Part shown: positions 11,903-45,899 of the stretch, piece after piece
How the letters are laid out: every line of letters begins with the position of its first letter
Position numbering within the stretch: position 1 is the stretch's first letter
Origin: Acidihalobacter yilgarnensis
GTDB taxonomy: Bacteria > Pseudomonadota > Gammaproteobacteria > DSM-5130 > Acidihalobacteraceae
Length of the DNA stretch: 64,000 bases
Assembly: GCF_001753245.1 (NCBI RefSeq)
Contig: NZ_CP017415.1
Span: forward strand, 1,082,501-1,146,500
Direction: 5' to 3'
Program-made: the position numbers and the translations under genes
The notes under the pieces: model-generated
Seen by the model: only the letters and a program-made list of their open reading frames with translations
The model's database searches: none
What the model was told of the DNA's origin: nothing

Positions 11903-13084
11903 ATGAGCAGCAATACCAGCACCTCTACACTCATCGCCCCACATGGCGGCCGCCTGATCGACCGTGTCGAACCATCCACGACGCATGCGGACGCTATGCA
12001 TCAAGCCGAAACACTGCCGTGCCTGACCTTGACTGCGCGTCAGCTGGCCGATCTGGAGTGTCTCGCCACTGGCATCTATTCGCCTTTGGAGGGATTCATG
12101 GACGCGGGCGATTATCACAGCGTGCTGGAATCGATGCGCTTAGCCGATGGCACGTTGTGGCCGATCCCGGTGGTCTTTGACGTGGATGCCCAGGATTTGG
12201 CGCGGATCGGTGCGGCAGCGGAGATCGCCCTGGTTTGGGCAGGCCATATCGTGGGGACCCTGCAAATTGCCGCTCGCTACTCCGCGGACAAGGCGCGGGA
12301 GGCACGCGCGGTTTACGGTACGGAAGAGCCAGCGCATCCAGGTGTGTCTGCCCTGCGTGCATTGGGCGACGTCTATCTGGCCGGGCCGGTGCGTTTACTC
12401 GAACCCTCGCTACACGGCAGCTTTGACCGCTATCGGTACACGCCGTTACGAAGCCGGGCCGAGTTTATCCGTCGCGGCTGGCGCCGGGTGGCGGCCTTCC
12501 AGACCCGGAACCCCATTCATCGCGCCCATGAGTATTTGCAGAAGGTAGCGCTGGAGCATGTCGATGGCCTGTTCGTGCACCCGCTGGTGGGTATGACCAA
12601 GTCTGACGACATTCCCGCCGAGCTGCGGATACGCAGCTACGAGGTGATTCTGGAGCGTTACTATCCGCTTGAACACACGCTGCTGGGGGTGTTCCCGGCA
12701 GCCATGCGCTACGCCGGGCCGCGCGAGGCGCTGATGCATGCGATCGCGCGCCAGAACTACGGTTGCAGTCACTTCATCGTGGGGCGCGACCACGCCGGGG
12801 TGGGCGGCTACTACGGCACCTACGATGCCCAGCGGATCTTCGAGGGTTTGACTTCGGCGGATTTGGGTATCACGCCGCTACCTTTTGAGAACGCAGCCTA
12901 CTGCCCGAGTTGCTCACAGATGGCTACACGCAAAACCTGCCCGCATCCCGAAACCAACTGGGTACAGTTGTCGGGTTCTCGCGTGCGTGAAATGTTGCGC
13001 CAGGGCATCCGTCCTCCCGCCGAATTCACGCGTCCCGAAGTGGCCGACCTGCTCATGCTACAAGCCGGCTGCCTCGAGGGGTGA
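11903..13084 (+). CDS. sat: Sulfate adenylyltransferase (homo-oligomeric ATP sulfurylase)
   Basis: A 393-residue enzyme that forms APS from ATP and sulfate. An N-terminal PUA-like domain (ending about 165) is followed by the catalytic domain with QTRNPIHRAHE and GRDHAGVGG. A C-terminal cysteine/histidine group (CPSCSQMATRKTCPH near 335) resembles the zinc site of Sat-type enzymes. It carries no APS kinase domain, unlike the second Sat at 20240-21937. It is last in the cysHJI operon and supplies APS to CysH. Sat-type enzymes also work in reverse in sulfur oxidation, but the context points to assimilation. Confidence 0.93.
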   Translation: MSSNTSTSTLIAPHGGRLIDRVEPSTTHADAMHQAETLPCLTLTARQLADLECLATGIYSPLEGFMDAGDYHSVLESMRLADGTLWPIPVVFDVDAQDLARIGAAAEIALVWAGHIVGTLQIAARYSADKAREARAVYGTEEPAHPGVSALRALGDVYLAGPVRLLEPSLHGSFDRYRYTPLRSRAEFIRRGWRRVAAFQTRNPIHRAHEYLQKVALEHVDGLFVHPLVGMTKSDDIPAELRIRSYEVILERYYPLEHTLLGVFPAAMRYAGPREALMHAIARQNYGCSHFIVGRDHAGVGGYYGTYDAQRIFEGLTSADLGITPLPFENAAYCPSCSQMATRKTCPHPETNWVQLSGSRVREMLRQGIRPPAEFTRPEVADLLMLQAGCLEG

Positions 13085-13111: not shown

Positions 13112-14440
13112 CTAGTCGACAGCGCTCCTTGGCGGACGTCTTGAGGCCTTCCAGGCACTTGTGCGGCGCTTGATATAGTTCTGGCAGGATTTGGCGGTAC
13201 GCAGCATGGGCATTTCATGATGGCTGCCGCCATGCTCGTCAGGTACATCGAGCTGTGAGACCAGCTCAGCGAAGACTCGCTCGAGGTGTGTGGGCACATT
13301 GGCCGCGGGGTGCTTCCCAGCGGGAGGGGGCACGCTGATGCCGGCGAGTGGGTCGTCGTCGCGCGGTTCGGCAAGGGTGAGGACGCCGCCGATATCGGGA
13401 GCGGCGGCGTCGCGACGGGTCAGTGGCGGGAGATGCCAGCGGCGTTCGATGGTTTTGAGGATCGAGGTGTGGTCTAGCGGCATCTCATGTTCAGCTACGC
13501 GGAACACCGTGCCGGGAGGGATCAACGGTGAGACGAGCACGGTGGGTACGCGGACGCCAAAGCGGCCGAAATCGAATCCGTACTCGCCGATGCTGTCGTC
13601 GGGTGCTACCGCGTGCGTCGGCGGCGCGACGTGGTCATAGCATCCGCCATGCTCGTCATAAGTGATGATCAAGAGTGTTCGTTGCCAGGCGGGACTGTTG
13701 CGCAGGGCGTAGTAGACATCGTGTATCAATTGTTCGCCTAGAGCGACATCGTAGTTGGGGTGCTGACTGTTGCCTGTGGCACCCCAACTAGGTTCCAGAA
13801 AGCTGAAGGCGGACAGCTTGCCGGTCTTGGCCGCGGTCTTGAAGTCGGAGAATTGGCCGAAATGTCGATCTTCGGCATGGGTGATGTCGGCGAAGGTATA
13901 GCGCGTTAGGGGTTCGGCATTGTAGCCGTATACGGACCAGTCGATGCCTGCATCAGAGAGTCGACCGAACACGGTGGGGCAGGTGAAATATTTCGTATCG
14001 TCGTTCATGTGTCCCTGTGAAGTGGCCGCACAGGCGAAGGCACGATTGGGCAGGGTTTCGGTGGGGGCCGAGCTGTACCAATGATCGCAGACCGCATAGC
14101 CTCGCGCGAGCCCGGAGAGCACGGGTAACGTCGCTGAGGTGAACATGCCCATGATGTTGTCGGCCTGCGTGCCCGGCAAGATCGAACGATGTTCGCGAGC
14201 CTCCCATCCCAAGGTGTATGCGTAATCCGTGACAAAGCCTCGGTTCGTGGCGATAGGGGGTGTCGGCGCCTGTCGGTGGCCGAAGAGCTGTGAGTTGGTA
14301 GCAGCGAAGCCTTCGCCGGGGTCGGCCCCAGGCATGAAATAGACATGCTCGTGTGAGCGCTCGATTGGAAAGGCGGGAACCGCACGCCCTTCGCCATCCG
14401 AATTGTCTTCGTGTCCGGTCAATCCCTCGAAGTCATGGCC
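13112..14440 (-). pseudogene. Phosphoesterase (phospholipase C/acid phosphatase family), main part after a frameshift
   Basis: About 440 codons of a PF04185-type phosphoesterase, with the metal/catalytic segment TYDEHGGCYDHV and a HISTIDINE-rich active site environment. The usual N-terminal motif (ENRSFDHMLG) is missing from this frame. It is encoded immediately upstream in the frame of the sedolisin gene. Reading through, GHDFEGLTG here continues the sequence ending NNNISPP there, so one base appears lost near 14438-14447. A TTG at 14422 could start translation only of a protein lacking its first metal-binding motif. Family members hydrolyse phosphate esters outside the cytoplasm, but no signal peptide is visible. 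It may be intact if the frameshift is a sequencing error. Confidence 0.75.
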
Positions 14441-16104
14441 GGCGGGGAGATATTGTTATTATCGGCATAGAGATAGCCGAGCATGTGGTCAAAGGACCGA
14501 TTTTCCAACATGAGTACGACGACGTGGTCGATGGCATCGAGTCGGTCGTGAGTTGTCGTTGCTGCTGTTTGGTGGCCCGCTAGTGATTGAGCCAGCGTCC
14601 GTCCGCGTGGTACGCCCAGACCGGCGCAGGCATTCCACCCTGTCGTGGCGTTGTAGCCGATATCGGTACCTGAGGGGATGTTGTTTCCAGAGGTGACGGG
14701 GCGAAGTAGATTCGGTTGTTCATAGAGGCGGGGCAGAAAAAATCCCAATGAGTTTTTCGCCTGTTGATTGATCAATGCAGTCAGACCGGCCCAGAAAGGC
14801 GCTACCGCGCTGGTGCCACCCACGGTGGTCATGTTGCCTTGGACTACGATGAGATAGCCGGTCGAGGGCGCCGCGTCGGCAGCGACATCCGGTACGCCAC
14901 GTCCACTGCGGCCGCTGTTGAGATTGGCGGGCATGGACAGATTTTTTTGGAATGTGGGTACGCCAAACACTTCACTGATACCACCCCCGGTGCCACGTCG
15001 GCCATTGTTCCATACGACTTCGTCGGTGATGACGCCGTGCTTGAGGGTGATCGCGGTACCGCCACAGCCAACGACCCAAGGGCTGGAGGCTGGGAAATCG
15101 ACATGTGCCCTCCCGTCGTTGATGCCGTCCGTGGCGAGATTGTCACCGGCGGCAGCGAAGACCGAGACGCCCAGCGTCGCGGCATCCTTGAGCACGCTGT
15201 TCATCGCCTGCAGCGCCTGAGGACTCCAGTTGACCTCGGCGCTTCCCCAGCTGATGGAAATCACGCTGGGTGAATTCGTTCGGTCATGGGCTGCAGCACT
15301 GATGGCATTCACGAAGCCTGCATCCGTATTGGGCGTGAAATAGACGGCGATGCGAGCACCTGGGGCAATACCGCCCGCGACTTGGATATCAAGCGCGACT
15401 TCGCCGTCGGCTCCTTGGTTGGGATTGGGCTGATTCACACCATGATCGACGGAGATCGATACGACATTCGGCGGTGGGAGCCCCATGGCTCGGAATGCGA
15501 CTTGTGTATCCGAATCGAGATATCCGCCGCCCAGCTCGACCAAGCCGATGCATTGGCCCATGCCGGTAACGTCGGTGGGGACATCGTATAAGGCACCGAT
15601 TGCGTTCGGGAGATGACCCGGCATTGATGCAGCGTCGTGCAAGGGGACGATATGCCGAGGCTCCGCGATCGGCCTTGTGTCGAGCCCGAGCACAGCTTCG
15701 GTGACGGCGGCGACCTCTTCAGGTACCCACAAGGGGCCGCTACGCGCCCGGAATGAGTGCGTGCCGTCGTGATAGTGCTCAAGCCGGGTACGGAAGGCTG
15801 CCTCGATGCCTTGTGTCGTGCCAGAGATGCGAATCAGGCGCCTACCGGGTTCGACAGTGATGACGCTTAGCCCTGCTTCGCGTGTGAAATCGACAATGCG
15901 GCGTATCTCTGTTTGATAGGCTTCCGCGCGTCGTTTATCGAGGCCTTCGCGAGTTTCTCTGCCATGGCTAACGGCTTCGTGAGGTTGGGGTTTGAGATAG
16001 AGGCTGATCTCGATGAATTCACCGGGCGACACATGCGCGAGGCGTGTCGCCGCAGGTACGGTCTTGTGACTGCCGGGCAATTCGATGTAGGAACGGATGG
16101 CCAT
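14419..16104 (-). CDS. Kumamolisin-like sedolisin protease (S53) fused to the start of a phosphoesterase
   Basis: A 561-residue frame with a pro-kumamolisin activation domain (about 1-150), an S53 catalytic domain (about 165-510) and the first 35-40 residues of a phosphoesterase (IDHVVVLMLENRSFDH at about 525-540). The sedolisin triad is present: E235 and D239 (GEVALDI), oxyanion D321 (AAAGD) and S432 (GGTSAVAPFWAG). The calcium-binding tail has N where family members usually have D (TGWNACAGLG). Sedolisins work at acid pH and activate by self-cleavage of the prodomain. There is no signal peptide. GGAGG lies seven bases before the ATG. The frame ends soon after the fusion point, and the phosphoesterase continues in the -1 frame (see 13112-14440). 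Confidence 0.88.
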   Translation of the reverse strand: MAIRSYIELPGSHKTVPAATRLAHVSPGEFIEISLYLKPQPHEAVSHGRETREGLDKRRAEAYQTEIRRIVDFTREAGLSVITVEPGRRLIRISGTTQGIEAAFRTRLEHYHDGTHSFRARSGPLWVPEEVAAVTEAVLGLDTRPIAEPRHIVPLHDAASMPGHLPNAIGALYDVPTDVTGMGQCIGLVELGGGYLDSDTQVAFRAMGLPPPNVVSISVDHGVNQPNPNQGADGEVALDIQVAGGIAPGARIAVYFTPNTDAGFVNAISAAAHDRTNSPSVISISWGSAEVNWSPQALQAMNSVLKDAATLGVSVFAAAGDNLATDGINDGRAHVDFPASSPWVVGCGGTAITLKHGVITDEVVWNNGRRGTGGGISEVFGVPTFQKNLSMPANLNSGRSGRGVPDVAADAAPSTGYLIVVQGNMTTVGGTSAVAPFWAGLTALINQQAKNSLGFFLPRLYEQPNLLRPVTSGNNIPSGTDIGYNATTGWNACAGLGVPRGRTLAQSLAGHQTAATTTHDRLDAIDHVVVLMLENRSFDHMLGYLYADNNNISPPAMTSRD

Positions 16105-16433
16105 CAGTTACCTCCCGATTGAGCCCAGCGGCATCTCGCCGATGGACGGTGTGGGTGATTGTTTGGCGTCGACTCCGTGAAACTGAGATGTGCGGGTTGT
16201 GTCCATTCAAGCCGCTGAGGTCCGCGTGAAGGGGAGCGGCGATGGCCGACACATCACGCATCCTAGCCACTCTGAGTTGGATGGCAATGTGTCGCCACAA
16301 GGCGTCAAATCGGGGGGGTATTGGGGCTTGTGCTAAATCGGTCTGCCTTCAGCTCGAAGGGGATGTCGTTGGCCGCAGGTTTTCCTGTCAGTAGGCGCTG
16401 GCTTTCTGACGATGGCCAAGCTTTGCCCCCGAT

Positions 16434-20239: not shown

Positions 20240-21937
20240 TTACGGCATATACCCGAGCGCCTCAAGTTTTAGCAGGATGAGTTGCACAATTGCCTCCGGT
20301 GAGGCATCGGTAGTATCCAGTTTCAGATCGGGTGACTCCGGTTCCTCATAGGGATCGTCTATCCCTGTAAAATCCTTTATTAAGCCAGCGCGCGCCTTGG
20401 CATAAAGACCCTTGCGATCACGTGCTTCGCAGATACTTAATGGCGTTGCCACATGGATCTCTACAAAACCGCCAACGGCTTCAATCATTTGCCTGACTTC
20501 ACGCCTGGTGGCGGTGTATGGCGCGATGGGTGCGCAAATCGCTATCCCACGATTTTTGGTGATCTCGCTTGCTACGAAGCCGATCCTGCTGACATTGAGA
20601 TCACGATGTTCCTTGGAGAAACCGAGTTCACTCGAGAGGTGGGTTCTGACAATATCACCATCGAGCAGAGAAACCGGCCGGCCGCCAACTTCCATCAATT
20701 TGACGAGTAAGGCATTCGCTAATGTGGATTTGCCAGATCCTGATAGTCCGGTAAAAAACACGGTAAAGCCTTGAGCATATCGAGGTGGATATGTCCGTCT
20801 GAGTTCGGTGACGATCTCTGGATACGTGAACCAGTCTGGAATATCCAAACCCTCGCGAAGTCGGCGTCTCAATTCAGTGCCGGATATTGAGCGTACAGTT
20901 TCATCAGGGAGGATTTCATCACTGGGCGCATATTCCGAGCGCTCCTCGACGTACACCATGGCTTGGAACGGAATCATGTGTATGCCGAGTTCCTCCTGAT
21001 GTTTGTACATGAGGTCCTGTGCATCGTAGGTGCCATAAATTTCATTACCCAGGCTATCGCACCCCGGGCTGGCGTGATCGCGGCCCACGATAAAATGGCT
21101 GCATCCATAATTGCGTCGGATGATGGCATGCCAAAGCGCCTCACGCGGGCCCGCCATGCGCATAGCAAGCGGTAACAACGATAGCATCGTGGTTTGCTCT
21201 GGGAAGCGATGCAATGCATGTTCGTAGCACCGTACGCGAGTGTAATGATCGACATCGCCGGGTTTGGTCATACCCACAACGGGATGAAGCAGAAGATTGG
21301 CTTCAGCTTGCTGGGCTGCTCTGAAAGTCAATTCAACATGCGCCCTGTGCATAGGATTGCGCGTCTGGAAAGCGACTACGCGTTGCCAGCCTCTACGTAT
21401 GAATTCATTGCGAAGTTGTTCGGGTGTGTAGCGTGATTGACGGAAATCGTAGTGAGGCGGCGGCGTGACACCGCTTAAGGTTCCGCCTATGTAGGTTTCA
21501 TTGGTACGGTGATAAAGATGGTCTACGCCTGGGTGTGCCTGGTCCTGCGTGCCATATACGCAGTCGGCCTCGATTTTTTTGTCTGCGACCCAGCGCGTGG
21601 AAACCTTCATGTGGGCAATCAATAGACCTTCGGCATTCCGCAACTCAATCGACTCGCCAATTTCGATCGACGCTGCAAATTCTGACGTGACATCCAGTGT
21701 CAGTGGCATGGGCCAGAGTGTGTGGTCCATTAGCCTCATTTCATGGAGTACGCGATTGTAATCATCCTCATTCATAAAGCCACTTAGGGGTGAAAAAGCC
21801 CCATTGAGCAATAATTCCGTATCACATAGCTGGCGTGCGCTCAGTACCCACGAATGGCGTAGCGCTACCATGGGTTCCGGTGAGGTTTGGTATAGGTTTT
21901 TAAGCGTGCCGCCATATGGGGTGATCAATTGAATCAT
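20240..21937 (-). CDS. Bifunctional sulfate adenylyltransferase/APS kinase (makes PAPS)
   Basis: A 565-residue fusion: ATP sulfurylase at about 1-385 (QTRNPMHRAH, GRDHASPG) followed by APS kinase at about 395-560 (P-loop FTGLSGSGKST, LDGDIVRTHLSSELGFS, TPLSICEARDRKGLY). The ATG at 21937 has AAGGAG seven bases upstream and begins MIQLITPYGG, the usual start. It makes PAPS, the donor for sulfotransferases. The assimilatory reductase CysH in this window looks APS-specific, so PAPS made here is probably for sulfating something else. No sulfotransferase gene is visible nearby. It is encoded in the A+T-richer island. Confidence 0.92.
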   Translation of the reverse strand: MIQLITPYGGTLKNLYQTSPEPMVALRHSWVLSARQLCDTELLLNGAFSPLSGFMNEDDYNRVLHEMRLMDHTLWPMPLTLDVTSEFAASIEIGESIELRNAEGLLIAHMKVSTRWVADKKIEADCVYGTQDQAHPGVDHLYHRTNETYIGGTLSGVTPPPHYDFRQSRYTPEQLRNEFIRRGWQRVVAFQTRNPMHRAHVELTFRAAQQAEANLLLHPVVGMTKPGDVDHYTRVRCYEHALHRFPEQTTMLSLLPLAMRMAGPREALWHAIIRRNYGCSHFIVGRDHASPGCDSLGNEIYGTYDAQDLMYKHQEELGIHMIPFQAMVYVEERSEYAPSDEILPDETVRSISGTELRRRLREGLDIPDWFTYPEIVTELRRTYPPRYAQGFTVFFTGLSGSGKSTLANALLVKLMEVGGRPVSLLDGDIVRTHLSSELGFSKEHRDLNVSRIGFVASEITKNRGIAICAPIAPYTATRREVRQMIEAVGGFVEIHVATPLSICEARDRKGLYAKARAGLIKDFTGIDDPYEEPESPDLKLDTTDASPEAIVQLILLKLEALGYMP

Positions 21938-22043
21938 TGCCGAACTCCTTTGGCTGGCTGGAGACATTTACTAGACGGCCTTGTTTGACGTGATGGCGCG
22001 ATTAAGTTGCGTGCCTGTCTTCGTTTAAAGGACATGTCCGTAT

Positions 22044-41779: not shown

Positions 41780-44419
41780 GGCGATCGCCACCATTTGTCC
41801 CTACTGCGGCGTGGGCTGTGGCCTCAAGGTACGCCCCGGGGTCACGGTGGAGGTGCAGCCGGATACGACGCATCCCGCCAATCTGGGCCGCGTATGTTCC
41901 AAGGGCGCGGCCCTGGGTGAAACCCTGGGGAAGCTGATCGTCTGTGCCATCCAGAGATCAATGGTGCGCAGGCGAGCTGGGACGAGGCGCTCGATGAAGT
42001 CGCCGTGCGTTTGCGCACGGTCATCGAAGCGCATGGACCACAAGCTGTGGCCTTCTATGTCTCCGGTCAGCTGCTCACCGAAGATTATTATGTCGCCAAC
42101 AAGTTGATGAAGGGATTCATCGGCGCGTCGAACATTGATACCAACTCACGCCTATGCATGTCCTCTGCCGTGGCTGCCTACAAGCGTGCCCTGGGCGAGG
42201 ACGCGGTACCCTGCAGCTACCGAGACCTCGAAGAGGCCGATTTGCTGGTGCTGGCAGGCTCCAATGCGGCTTGGACGCACCCTGTGTTGTATCAGCGCAT
42301 CGTGGCTGAGAAGCGTCGCCGACCCGCTCTGCGTGTGGTTGTCATCGACCCGCGACGCACCGCAACCTGCGATATCGCCGACTTGCATCTGGCCCTGCGG
42401 CCTGGTGCGGATGCTTGGCTGTTCAACGGTTTGCTCAGCTATCTGGCTCGCGAGGGCGGCCTTGATCAGGATTTCCTGAACGCACACACGGGCGGGGCGG
42501 AGGCGGCACTAGAGGCTGCGCGTGCCGCCGCGCCGTCGATCCCGGCCGTGGCTGCGGCCTGCGAGCTGCCGGTGGCGCAGGTGGGCGAATTTTTCCGCTT
42601 GTTCCTGCGGACCGAGAAAGTCGTCACGATGTGGTCGCAGGGTTTGAATCAATCCAGCAGCGGGGTCGACAAGGGCGCCGCCCTGATCAATTGTCATCTG
42701 GCTACGGGCCGTATCGGTCGGCCCGGCATGGGACCGTTTTCGCTGACTGGGCAGCCCAATGCGATGGGGGGGCGTGAGGTGGGCGGGCTCGCCAATCAGC
42801 TGGCCGCGCACATGGATATCGACGACGCCGATGCACGCGATCGCTTGAGTCGCTTCTGGGGTGTGCCGGCGGTGGCCGATGCTCAGGGCCTCAAGGCAGT
42901 CGATTTATTTGAGGCAGTGGCCGATGGCCGGGTCAAGGCGGTCTGGATCATGGCGACCAATCCTGTCGTGAGCATGCCGGATGCCGACCGAGTGCGTGCG
43001 GCCCTGCAGGCTTGCGAGCACGTGATTGTTAGCGATTGCGTACGTGGCAGCGACACGGTAGCTTTCGCCGACGTACTCCTGCCAGTGGCAACCTGGGGTG
43101 AGAAGGACGGTACGGTAACCAATTCCGAACGTCGTATCTCGCGTATGCGTGCCTTTGTTGCGCCGCCGGGAGAGGCGCGCCCGGATTGGTGGATTATCAC
43201 TGAAGTGGCGCGGCGGTTAGGGCACGGCGATGGCTTCTCCTATCGTTCGCCGGCGGACATTTTCCGCGAGCATGCCGCGCTCTCTGCATTCGAAAATGAA
43301 GGTCGCCGAGTATTCGATATCGGCGCGCTCGCGGGCATTAGCGACGCACAGTATGATGCCTTGGCGCCGGTGCAGTGGCCGGTCAATGCGAAGCATCCGG
43401 AGGGTACCGAAAGATTGTTTGCCGACGGGTATTTCCCGACGGCCGATGGGCGTGCTCGCCTGCTGCCGGTAACCCCGCGCGCACCGGTGGTGGCCGCAGG
43501 CGATGAATATCCGCTGATAATGAATACGGGACGTATCCGGGATCAGTGGCACACCATGACGCGTACGGCACGCACGTCACGGCTGACCACCCACCTGCCG
43601 GAGCCCTTCGTGCAGATCCATCCGCTGGATGCCGATCTCTGGCACCTGAGCGACGGTAGCCTCGCACGGGTGATCAGTCCGCAAGGGCGCTTGCTGGCAC
43701 GGGTCAAGCTTGATCCGGCGCAACGGCCCGGATCGGTCTTCGTACCCATGCATTGGAACGAAGTCTACGCACGCAACGCGCGCGCCAATGCGTTGACCGC
43801 TGCCGTCACCGATCCGATCTCCGGGCAACCCGAATTCAAGCATGCCCCGGTGCGTGTGGAGCCCTTCCGCCCGCTCTGGGAGGGTTTTCTGCTCAGTCGT
43901 TCGCCACAAACCCTGCCGTTGGGCGAGTATCGGGTACACATTCCCAGCCGCGGTTTTCATCGCTACGAGCTGGCCGACGAGGCTTCGCCAGGAGACTGGG
44001 GACAGTGGGTGCAGGCGCACTTGCTCGGGCCAGGAGAATGGATGGAGTACGCCGATCCGGCAGCTGGGCGTTATCGCTGCGCACGCCTGCGTGACGGGCG
44101 TCTGGAGCTGGTGTTCTTCGTGGCGCCCGCGGGCCTTCCGGAGCGCAGTTGGCTGGGGCAGATGTTTGCGGAAGATTATCTCGATGACGTGGCGCGCATG
44201 AGCTTGCTCGCCGGGCGTCCGGTCACCGGCATGCGGGTCACCGGGCGGCAGGTCTGTGCCTGCTTCAACGTGGGGCTCAACACTCTGGTGGAGGCCATAG
44301 GCGAACAGGGTCTGACCAGTGTTGAAGCCATTGGGGAAGCCTTGCAGGCAGGTACCAATTGTGGCTCTTGTATCCCGGAGCTGCGGGAAATTCTGGCTCA
44401 GGCGCAACGGAGCGCCTGA
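41772..44419 (+). pseudogene. nasA: Assimilatory nitrate reductase catalytic subunit (one apparent frameshift)
   Basis: About 880 residues of a molybdopterin oxidoreductase. The N-terminus has the [4Fe-4S] set CPYCGVGCGL and GRVCSKG. The Mo-bis-MGD domain follows (SNAAWTHPV, GLNQSSSGVDKG, GPFSLTGQPNAMGGREVGG, NSERRISR). The C-terminus has a BFD-like [2Fe-2S] domain (VCACFNVG, NCGSC). Frame 1 is lost near 41927-41930: adding one G to the run GGGG gives LGEADRLCHPEINGAQASW, a normal NasA sequence joining frame 2. A sequencing error is likely because the flanks are well conserved. It reduces nitrate to nitrite for NirBD. Confidence 0.9.
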
Positions 44420-44439
44420 GCGGACGACGAGGAGGTCGC

Positions 44440-45899
44440 ATGAGGCATTTACCGATTTTCATGGACGTACAGGGGCACGACTGCCTTGTGGTTGGCGGCG
44501 GGTCCGTGGCGGTGCGTAAGGCTGGTCTGCTGCTGGAAGCAGGCGCCAAGGTCACCTTGGTAGCGCCCGAGGCTTGCAAGGAATTGCTTGAACAGCAGTC
44601 GGCGGGACGGATGATCTGGCTGGCGGAATCCTTCGCGGCTCGCCATCTTGCCGGTCGTATGCTGGTAATTGCCGCGACGGATGATGCCGGCGTCAATCGG
44701 CGCGTGTACGCGGCGGCGCGCAGCCGCAGCCTGCCGGTGAACGTGGCCGATCAGCCGGCGCTATGCAGTTTTATCCTACCGGCGGTGATCGACCGAGCCC
44801 CGGTAACCATTGCGGTATCGAGCGGTGGAACCGCACCGGTACTCGCACGCCATCTCAAGACCCGACTGGAAACATTCATACCGCATACCTGGGGCCGTTT
44901 GGCCGGCCTGCTCGGTGGTTGGCGCGGTGAGGTTAAACGGCGTCTGAGCTCGCCATTGGCGCGTCGTCGCTTCTGGGAGGATGCATTGGAGGGACAGGTT
45001 GCCTCGCTTGCCTTGGCTGGGGATACGGTCGGAGCCGAGGCATGTCTTGCACAGGCGTTATCTGCGGCGGTTGACGAGGGGGTACAGGGTCAGGGCGGCG
45101 AGGTTTGGTTGGTGGGTGCAGGACCGGGGGATCCGGAATTGTTGACGCTCAAGGCCTTGCGGCTGTTGCAGCGGGCGGATGTGATTGTTTACGACCGCCT
45201 CGTCGGCCCAGAAATACTCGCGCTTGCGCGCCGTGAAGCCGAGCGTGTTTTCGTTGGCAAGCGCGCAAGTGATCATGCGTTGCCGCAGGAGGCGATCAGC
45301 GAACTGCTGGTGCGGCTCGCAACGGAGGGCAAGCGCGTGTTACGTCTCAAGGGGGGGATCCCTTCATTTTCGGACGCGGCGGCGAGGAGATCGAGCGCCT
45401 GGCTGCCGCCCATATCCCCTTCCAGGTCGTGCCAGGGGTGACCGCAGCCAGCGGCTGCGCAGCTTATGCCGGTATCCCGCTGACGCATCGCGATTGCGCT
45501 ACTAGCGTGCGCTTCGTGACTGGGCACACGCGTGATGATCGCCTGGATCTTGATTGGGCTGGACTGGCGATGGCGCGGCAGACACTGGTGTTCTACATGG
45601 GGTTGGCCAACCTGTCCGAAATCTGCGAGCGGCTGATCGCGAATGGCATGTCGGCCGATACGCCGGCTGCGCTGGTGGAGCAAGGCACGACGCCTGGCCA
45701 GCGGGTCCACGCCGGCAATCTGACCACGCTACCGTCGCTGGCGGCCACGGCCGGATCGCCAAGCCTGGTAATCGTAGGCGAGGTGGTAGCCTTGCGTGAA
45801 CGTCTCGGCTGGTATGAGGGCGCGGCACCCGGACAGTCCTCATTTGATCGCCCACCCTGTACCGCGGTTGCCGAGGCGCTGCACAGCGAGGTGGCATAA
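44440..45899 (+). pseudogene. cysG: Sirohaem synthase (CysG), second copy, one apparent frameshift
   Basis: About 486 residues in two frames: precorrin-2 dehydrogenase/ferrochelatase (VVGGGSVAVRKAGLL) and uroporphyrinogen methyltransferase (VGAGPGDPELLTLKAL). The frame breaks at the seven-G run 45351-45357; eight G would give [16 protein letters not shown], exactly the conserved motif. AGGAGG precedes the ATG at 44440. It lies 20 bp after nasA and would supply sirohaem to NirB, parallel to the first cysG beside cysI. The two copies are clearly diverged in sequence, not a recent duplication. Confidence 0.9.

Follow-up and report, generated by a model that had tools for sequence, protein, structure and literature searches.

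The window analysed here, a 64,000-nucleotide (64 kb) stretch of the genome of Acidihalobacter yilgarnensis, an acidophilic, metal-oxidising gammaproteobacterium, carries on its minus strand an open reading frame for a sedolisin (S53) protease that continues, with no stop codon, into the opening motif of a PF04185 phosphoesterase; the remainder of that enzyme lies in an overlapping second frame. The question raised by this locus is whether the two enzymes are made as a single chain, here interrupted by one missing base, or are separate neighbours whose frames meet by accident; if the chain is real, a further question is what a protease and a phosphoesterase may do together.

Organization of the locus

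Open reading frame and Pfam analyses of the window, which belongs to a genome of 3,566,941 bases in a single contig, reproduced the layout and the coordinates given in a preliminary description of this DNA, namely an S53 frame reading into a PF04185 motif with the rest of that enzyme in another frame. The features are the following:

16110–16116, minus strand: Shine-Dalgarno-like GGGAGGT, 5 bases 5' of the S53 ATG, a good ribosome-binding site (read from the upstream sequence)
14419–16104, minus strand: kumamolisin-type S53 frame, 561 aa, up to the frame break and including the first phosphoesterase motif
15625–16104, minus strand: pro-domain PF09286, about residues 1–160, without signal peptide
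14581–15624, minus strand: S53 catalytic domain, about residues 161–508
15382–15408, minus strand: catalytic Glu/Asp motif DGEVALDIQ (alignment to kumamolisin)
15139–15153, minus strand: oxyanion Asp motif AAGDN (alignment to kumamolisin)
14797–14820, minus strand: nucleophile Ser motif GGTSAVAP (alignment to kumamolisin)
14614–14706, minus strand: region of the family calcium site (alignment; ligand identity from PMC2914745)
14533–14580, minus strand: interdomain linker with no in-frame ATG, GTG or TTG; the corresponding stretch is of low confidence in the structural model
14485–14532, minus strand: first PF04185 strand and metal/catalytic motif IDHVVVLMLENRSFDH, in the S53 frame
14438–14447, minus strand: frame break in a C/G run, one base fewer than in the intact congener copy
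13112–14422, minus strand: remaining part of the PF04185 enzyme, in a frame of 436 aa
14312–14323, minus strand: phosphoesterase motif DPGE
14042–14062, minus strand: phosphoesterase motif TETLPNR
13754–13768, minus strand: phosphoesterase motif SQHPN
13643–13660, minus strand: phosphoesterase motif YDEHGG

Specifically, Pfam places Pro-kuma_activ at residues 63–143 of the first ORF and the subtilase fold at 238–451; residues 525–549 of that ORF match PF04185 positions 1–25 (22.9 bits), and PF04185 positions 68–356 match the second ORF with 197 bits. The pro-kumamolisin domain, which had been described as complete, does align with its relatives over the full length, but the Pfam match (PF09286, the pro-kumamolisin activation domain; 43.6 bits in the window and 37.9 bits in the congener G001, cut-off 23.5) covers only its C-terminal 60% (positions 60–142 of 143).

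An intact copy in a congener establishes the joint

A second genome of the same genus, G001, holds the whole gene intact, its 1,001 aa encoded in a single open frame, in agreement with the single chain of about 1,000 residues that had been proposed for the window. The G001 protein matches PF04185 with 237 bits over positions 1–356 of 356, above the curated cut-off, and is identical to the window's translation at 71% of positions in the protease part and 75% in the phosphoesterase part. In a codon comparison of the two copies, dN/dS was 0.11 in the protease part and 0.16 beyond the break, which indicates that both parts of the gene have been under purifying selection since the two species split. 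The gene stands at a different locus in G001, where it adjoins a penicillin-binding protein gene. Since G001 encodes the same arrangement as a single 1,001-residue open frame, chance is excluded and we conclude that the fusion joint is real.

The preliminary description had held that a stop between the domains, or an independent start for the second enzyme, would speak against a single chain; G001 has no stop codon between the two domains, and a search for ATG, GTG and TTG codons in the linker of both species returned none. In the window these codons are absent from the end of the S53 domain up to a methionine inside the first phosphoesterase strand, and in G001 two TTG codons lie at the S53 C-terminus, just before the linker, with no start codon after them. 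Barring an abnormal start, a linker without start codons implies that the phosphoesterase is made only as part of the fusion. That the two enzymes are translated separately, with the read-through frame as an accident of gene adjacency, would fit their occurrence as separate genes in all other genomes examined; this reading is nevertheless rendered very improbable by the G001 copy with its uninterrupted joint, and separate translation of the phosphoesterase was rejected because of the linker devoid of start codons.

Nature of the frame break

Alignment to G001 recovers the single-base break that had been placed at 14438–14447 and puts the missing base at about 14446, in a short C/G run. Three single-base absences of this kind are found along the 64 kb, all of them at G/C runs; for the two outside the fusion gene, the comparison is between the window and G001 alone. 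One affects the assimilatory nitrate reductase gene nasA (plus strand; apparent start at about 41775, listed frame 42005–44419), which has one base fewer at about 41930, at a G run. The other falls at position 45354, in a G7 run of the second of the window's two cysG (siroheme synthase) copies, splitting it into frames 44359–45441 and 45429–45899 (plus strand), probably by a read error.

Given that all three absences occur at G/C runs, a read error is a likelier cause of the break in the fusion gene than a programmed shift or other functional feature. Programmed frameshifting, by which the two frames would be joined by design, could draw on the position of the break, in a short run of C with an otherwise intact domain on either side; we consider it extremely improbable, as inspection by eye revealed no canonical slippery heptamer at the break, and rejected it because in G001 this protein is read in a single frame. 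A true mutation, which would make this strain's gene a pseudogene being lost and leave the phosphoesterase unmade, is a more serious alternative, possible but on the whole unlikely. In a second congener, G002, the gene has been lost by deletion, with only about 74 C-terminal codons left between arsR and a GGDEF/EAL gene, the same two genes that flank the fusion region in the window. The fusion is thus dispensable and its loss tolerated in the genus, which makes true decay possible in the window's strain as well. Against decay, the 436 codons past the break are still open, 75% identical to G001 and evolving at a dN/dS of 0.16, and the like absences in nasA and cysG form the pattern of read errors. 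The G002 remnant itself maps to L041:6332-6565, and an IS66-like transposase gene is found nearby (L041:4146-5591).

Predicted structure of the fusion protein

An AlphaFold model was obtained for the G001 protein (mean pLDDT 79.9, pTM 0.59), in which both halves fold and linker residues 513–524 have pLDDT values below 50. The corresponding linker of the window is 16 residues long. Such a low-confidence linker is predicted to be flexible, a property that would permit, without proving, the self-release of the phosphoesterase by the sedolisin. The solved folds closest to the model are pro-kumamolisin (1t1e; TM 0.82 on target) and, for the second half, the non-specific phospholipases C NPC4 of plants (8hav/8haw) and RePLC of fungi (8k3g), with TM values of 0.74–0.78 on target.

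The protease half is a kumamolisin-type S53 with a modified calcium site

The S53 half scores 394 bits against solved kumamolisin and keeps the catalytic Glu and Asp, the oxyanion Asp and the Ser. With kumamolisin and kumamolisin-As (PDB 1t1e and 1sio) it has in common the pro-domain, the catalytic domain and the Ser-Glu-Asp site, and Foldseek alignments to kumamolisin give 43% identity across the pro-enzyme, rising to about 52% when only the mature domain is counted. Mature kumamolisin, however, is a single-domain protease, whereas the fusion chain runs on into the phosphoesterase and lacks the Asp residues of the calcium site. Two Asp ligands of this site are described as conserved in S53 enzymes and as necessary for the processing of pro-TPP1 (PMC2914745); in the window their places are taken by Pro and Asn, in G001 by Pro and Ser. 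As these carboxylate ligands are missing from both fusions, self-activation may be impaired. The sister standalone S53s also vary at the ligand positions, and the fusions therefore represent a variant of S53 rather than an outsider.

No export signal was found on the fusion protein, as had been remarked at the outset, and this counts against a mechanism based on exposure to acid. The standalone relatives of each half lack one as well, nearly all the S53s compared being without an evident signal peptide, and its absence is thus not peculiar to the fusion.

The phosphoesterase half leans towards non-specific phospholipase C

The active site of NPC4 comprises E23, N24, D76, H79, T158, H264, D299 and E300, with His79 as the proposed general acid (PMC9837106). 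Seven of the eight equivalents are kept in the fusion (E, N, D, T, H, D and E); the His79 equivalent is a Glu, as it is in most of the standalone relatives aligned. NPC4 and RePLC, which have the same PF04185 fold, are 28–32% identical to the fusion's phosphoesterase, which differs in having Glu in place of NPC4 His79 and in its position behind a protease. AcpA-type acid phosphatase (2d1g), of the same Pfam superfamily and fold, gave a lower TM on target (0.54–0.57), and the phosphocholine-specific phospholipases C PlcH and PlcN (TIGR03396), likewise of this superfamily and fold, gave 0.42–0.44. The post-break frame of the window falls well short of the curated cut-offs of the two NCBIfam models compared, with 82.8 bits for TIGR03396 (equivalog cut-off 580) and 75.8 bits for TIGR03397, the Burkholderia-type acid phosphatase (cut-off 363). 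In predicted fold, this half is closer to non-specific phospholipase C than to acid phosphatase; of the two activities named in the preliminary description, phosphatase or phospholipase, the fold comparison favours the latter, as a phospholipase C.

Distribution and origin of the two parts

The intact fusion was used as a query against about 1,630 genomes, in partly overlapping sets (369 of the class, 399 of the phylum, 397 of an actinobacterial phylum, 148 of an actinobacterial order and 250 of an alphaproteobacterial order); most runs scored the best two to five candidates per genome, a depth at which remote fusions could be missed. Among these candidates, no fusion was found outside the window's genome and G001, and only separate genes were detected. 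In collections of plasmids and phages no fusion was found either, no single place matching more than about half of the query, and no S53–PF04185 fusion emerged from open papers searched in full text. The arrangement, which had been flagged as unfamiliar, was thus seen nowhere else in about 1,600 other genomes. We conclude that this domain arrangement is novel as far as these searches reach and, among the genomes searched, found in only one genus, each half belonging to an ordinary, well-known enzyme family.

Three long frames examined as candidates were discarded. In L047, most of the 1,102-codon frame with PF04185 that precedes a Tat-type leader is non-coding, so that it is no fusion, the 1,117-codon frame in L078 ends at a stop as a plain 540-aa S53, and the 3,126-codon frame containing an S53 in L045 (G454) is a run of N.

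Distant relatives encode the two enzymes separately, which shows the source of the fusion's parts; both occur as unlinked standalone genes in G371, G1238 and Caballeronia sp. SBC2. Specifically, leaderless PF04185 proteins of Actinomycetota, Caballeronia and one gammaproteobacterium (L006, L007, L096, L116 and L016) are 57–66% identical to the fusion half and like it in domain length, motifs and missing signal peptide, but are encoded by separate, unfused genes of 439–503 aa. Leaderless S53s of alphaproteobacteria, including L106, are 53–60% identical to the fusion's protease and are either single-domain or carry a propeller instead of a phosphoesterase. Two of the standalone genes have neighbours of their own: in a Mycobacterium MAG (L007:4149-6308) a tyrosinase-like gene immediately precedes that of the phosphoesterase, neither product having a signal peptide, and in Caballeronia sp. 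SBC2 (L117:4929-10579) two genes come after the standalone leaderless S53, identified by eye as those of a probable S10 carboxypeptidase and a catalase.

A tree of 20 S53 domains nests the fused pair within one alphaproteobacterial family (support 97/96), with L106 as its sister (96/91). The L106 gene (L106:487-3036, minus strand) encodes a leaderless alphaproteobacterial S53 followed, at the same C-terminal boundary, by tandem PLL-like beta-propeller repeats, which weakly match a Photorhabdus protein structure (8q83). This second fusion suggests that leaderless S53s exchange modules at their C-terminus. Long branches obscured most inner branches of the phosphoesterase tree, from which we took no grouping other than that of the two fusions with each other. 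The fusion illustrates how protease and phosphoesterase genes, separate elsewhere, came together, and it adds a domain arrangement absent from the open papers searched and from the genomes searched outside one genus.

A possible acid-activated protease–phospholipase

The observations as a whole are probably best explained by a fusion gene of Acidihalobacter encoding an S53 zymogen, a flexible linker and an NPC-like PF04185 enzyme, the chain presumably being activated by acid and the break in the window likely a read error. An alphaproteobacterial-type S53 gene would have been joined, at its C-terminal end, to a leaderless standalone phosphoesterase. Reasoning from sequence, the product is most likely a zymogen made in the cytosol and self-activating in acid, bearing on its flexible tail an enzyme that hydrolyses lipids. 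Synthesised in the near-neutral cytosol, the chain would be kept inactive as a protease by its pro-domain. The pH optima of the genus lie near 2 (PMC9062700), and we infer that the chain, on meeting the outside acid through lysis or some export route, would have its pro-domain cut away and probably its linker too. Protease and phospholipase may then break down the protein and phospholipid of dead cells, chiefly for scavenging.

It is also conceivable, if rather doubtful, that the fusion is merely tolerated as two independent hydrolases on one chain, with neither self-release nor acid-triggered delivery. The shortness of the linker, the degraded calcium site and the confinement of the arrangement to one genus would all be compatible with such a reading; on the other hand, the fusion has been kept, with purifying selection on both parts, since the split of the two species, and the S53 standing nearest to it in the tree bears another C-terminal domain at the same joint. 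A broader proposal extends the acid-activated zymogen to leaderless kumamolisin-type S53s of acid-tolerant proteobacteria in general, which would act as acid-triggered, self-cleaving carriers with cargo at one C-terminal joint (the phospholipase of the Acidihalobacter fusion, the lectin-like propeller of the alphaproteobacterial L106) activated or released only in the acid outside; we hold this for a speculative and rather improbable extension. If the acid-activated zymogen is the correct reading, a protease silent at neutral pH coupled to an enzyme attacking membrane lipids, in an organism living near pH 2, would offer a simple natural test of a zymogen controlling a partner enzyme on the same chain.

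Among the other genes of the window are two for sulfate adenylyltransferase, at 11903–13084 (plus strand) and 20240–21967 (minus strand), the second of which is fused to APS kinase.
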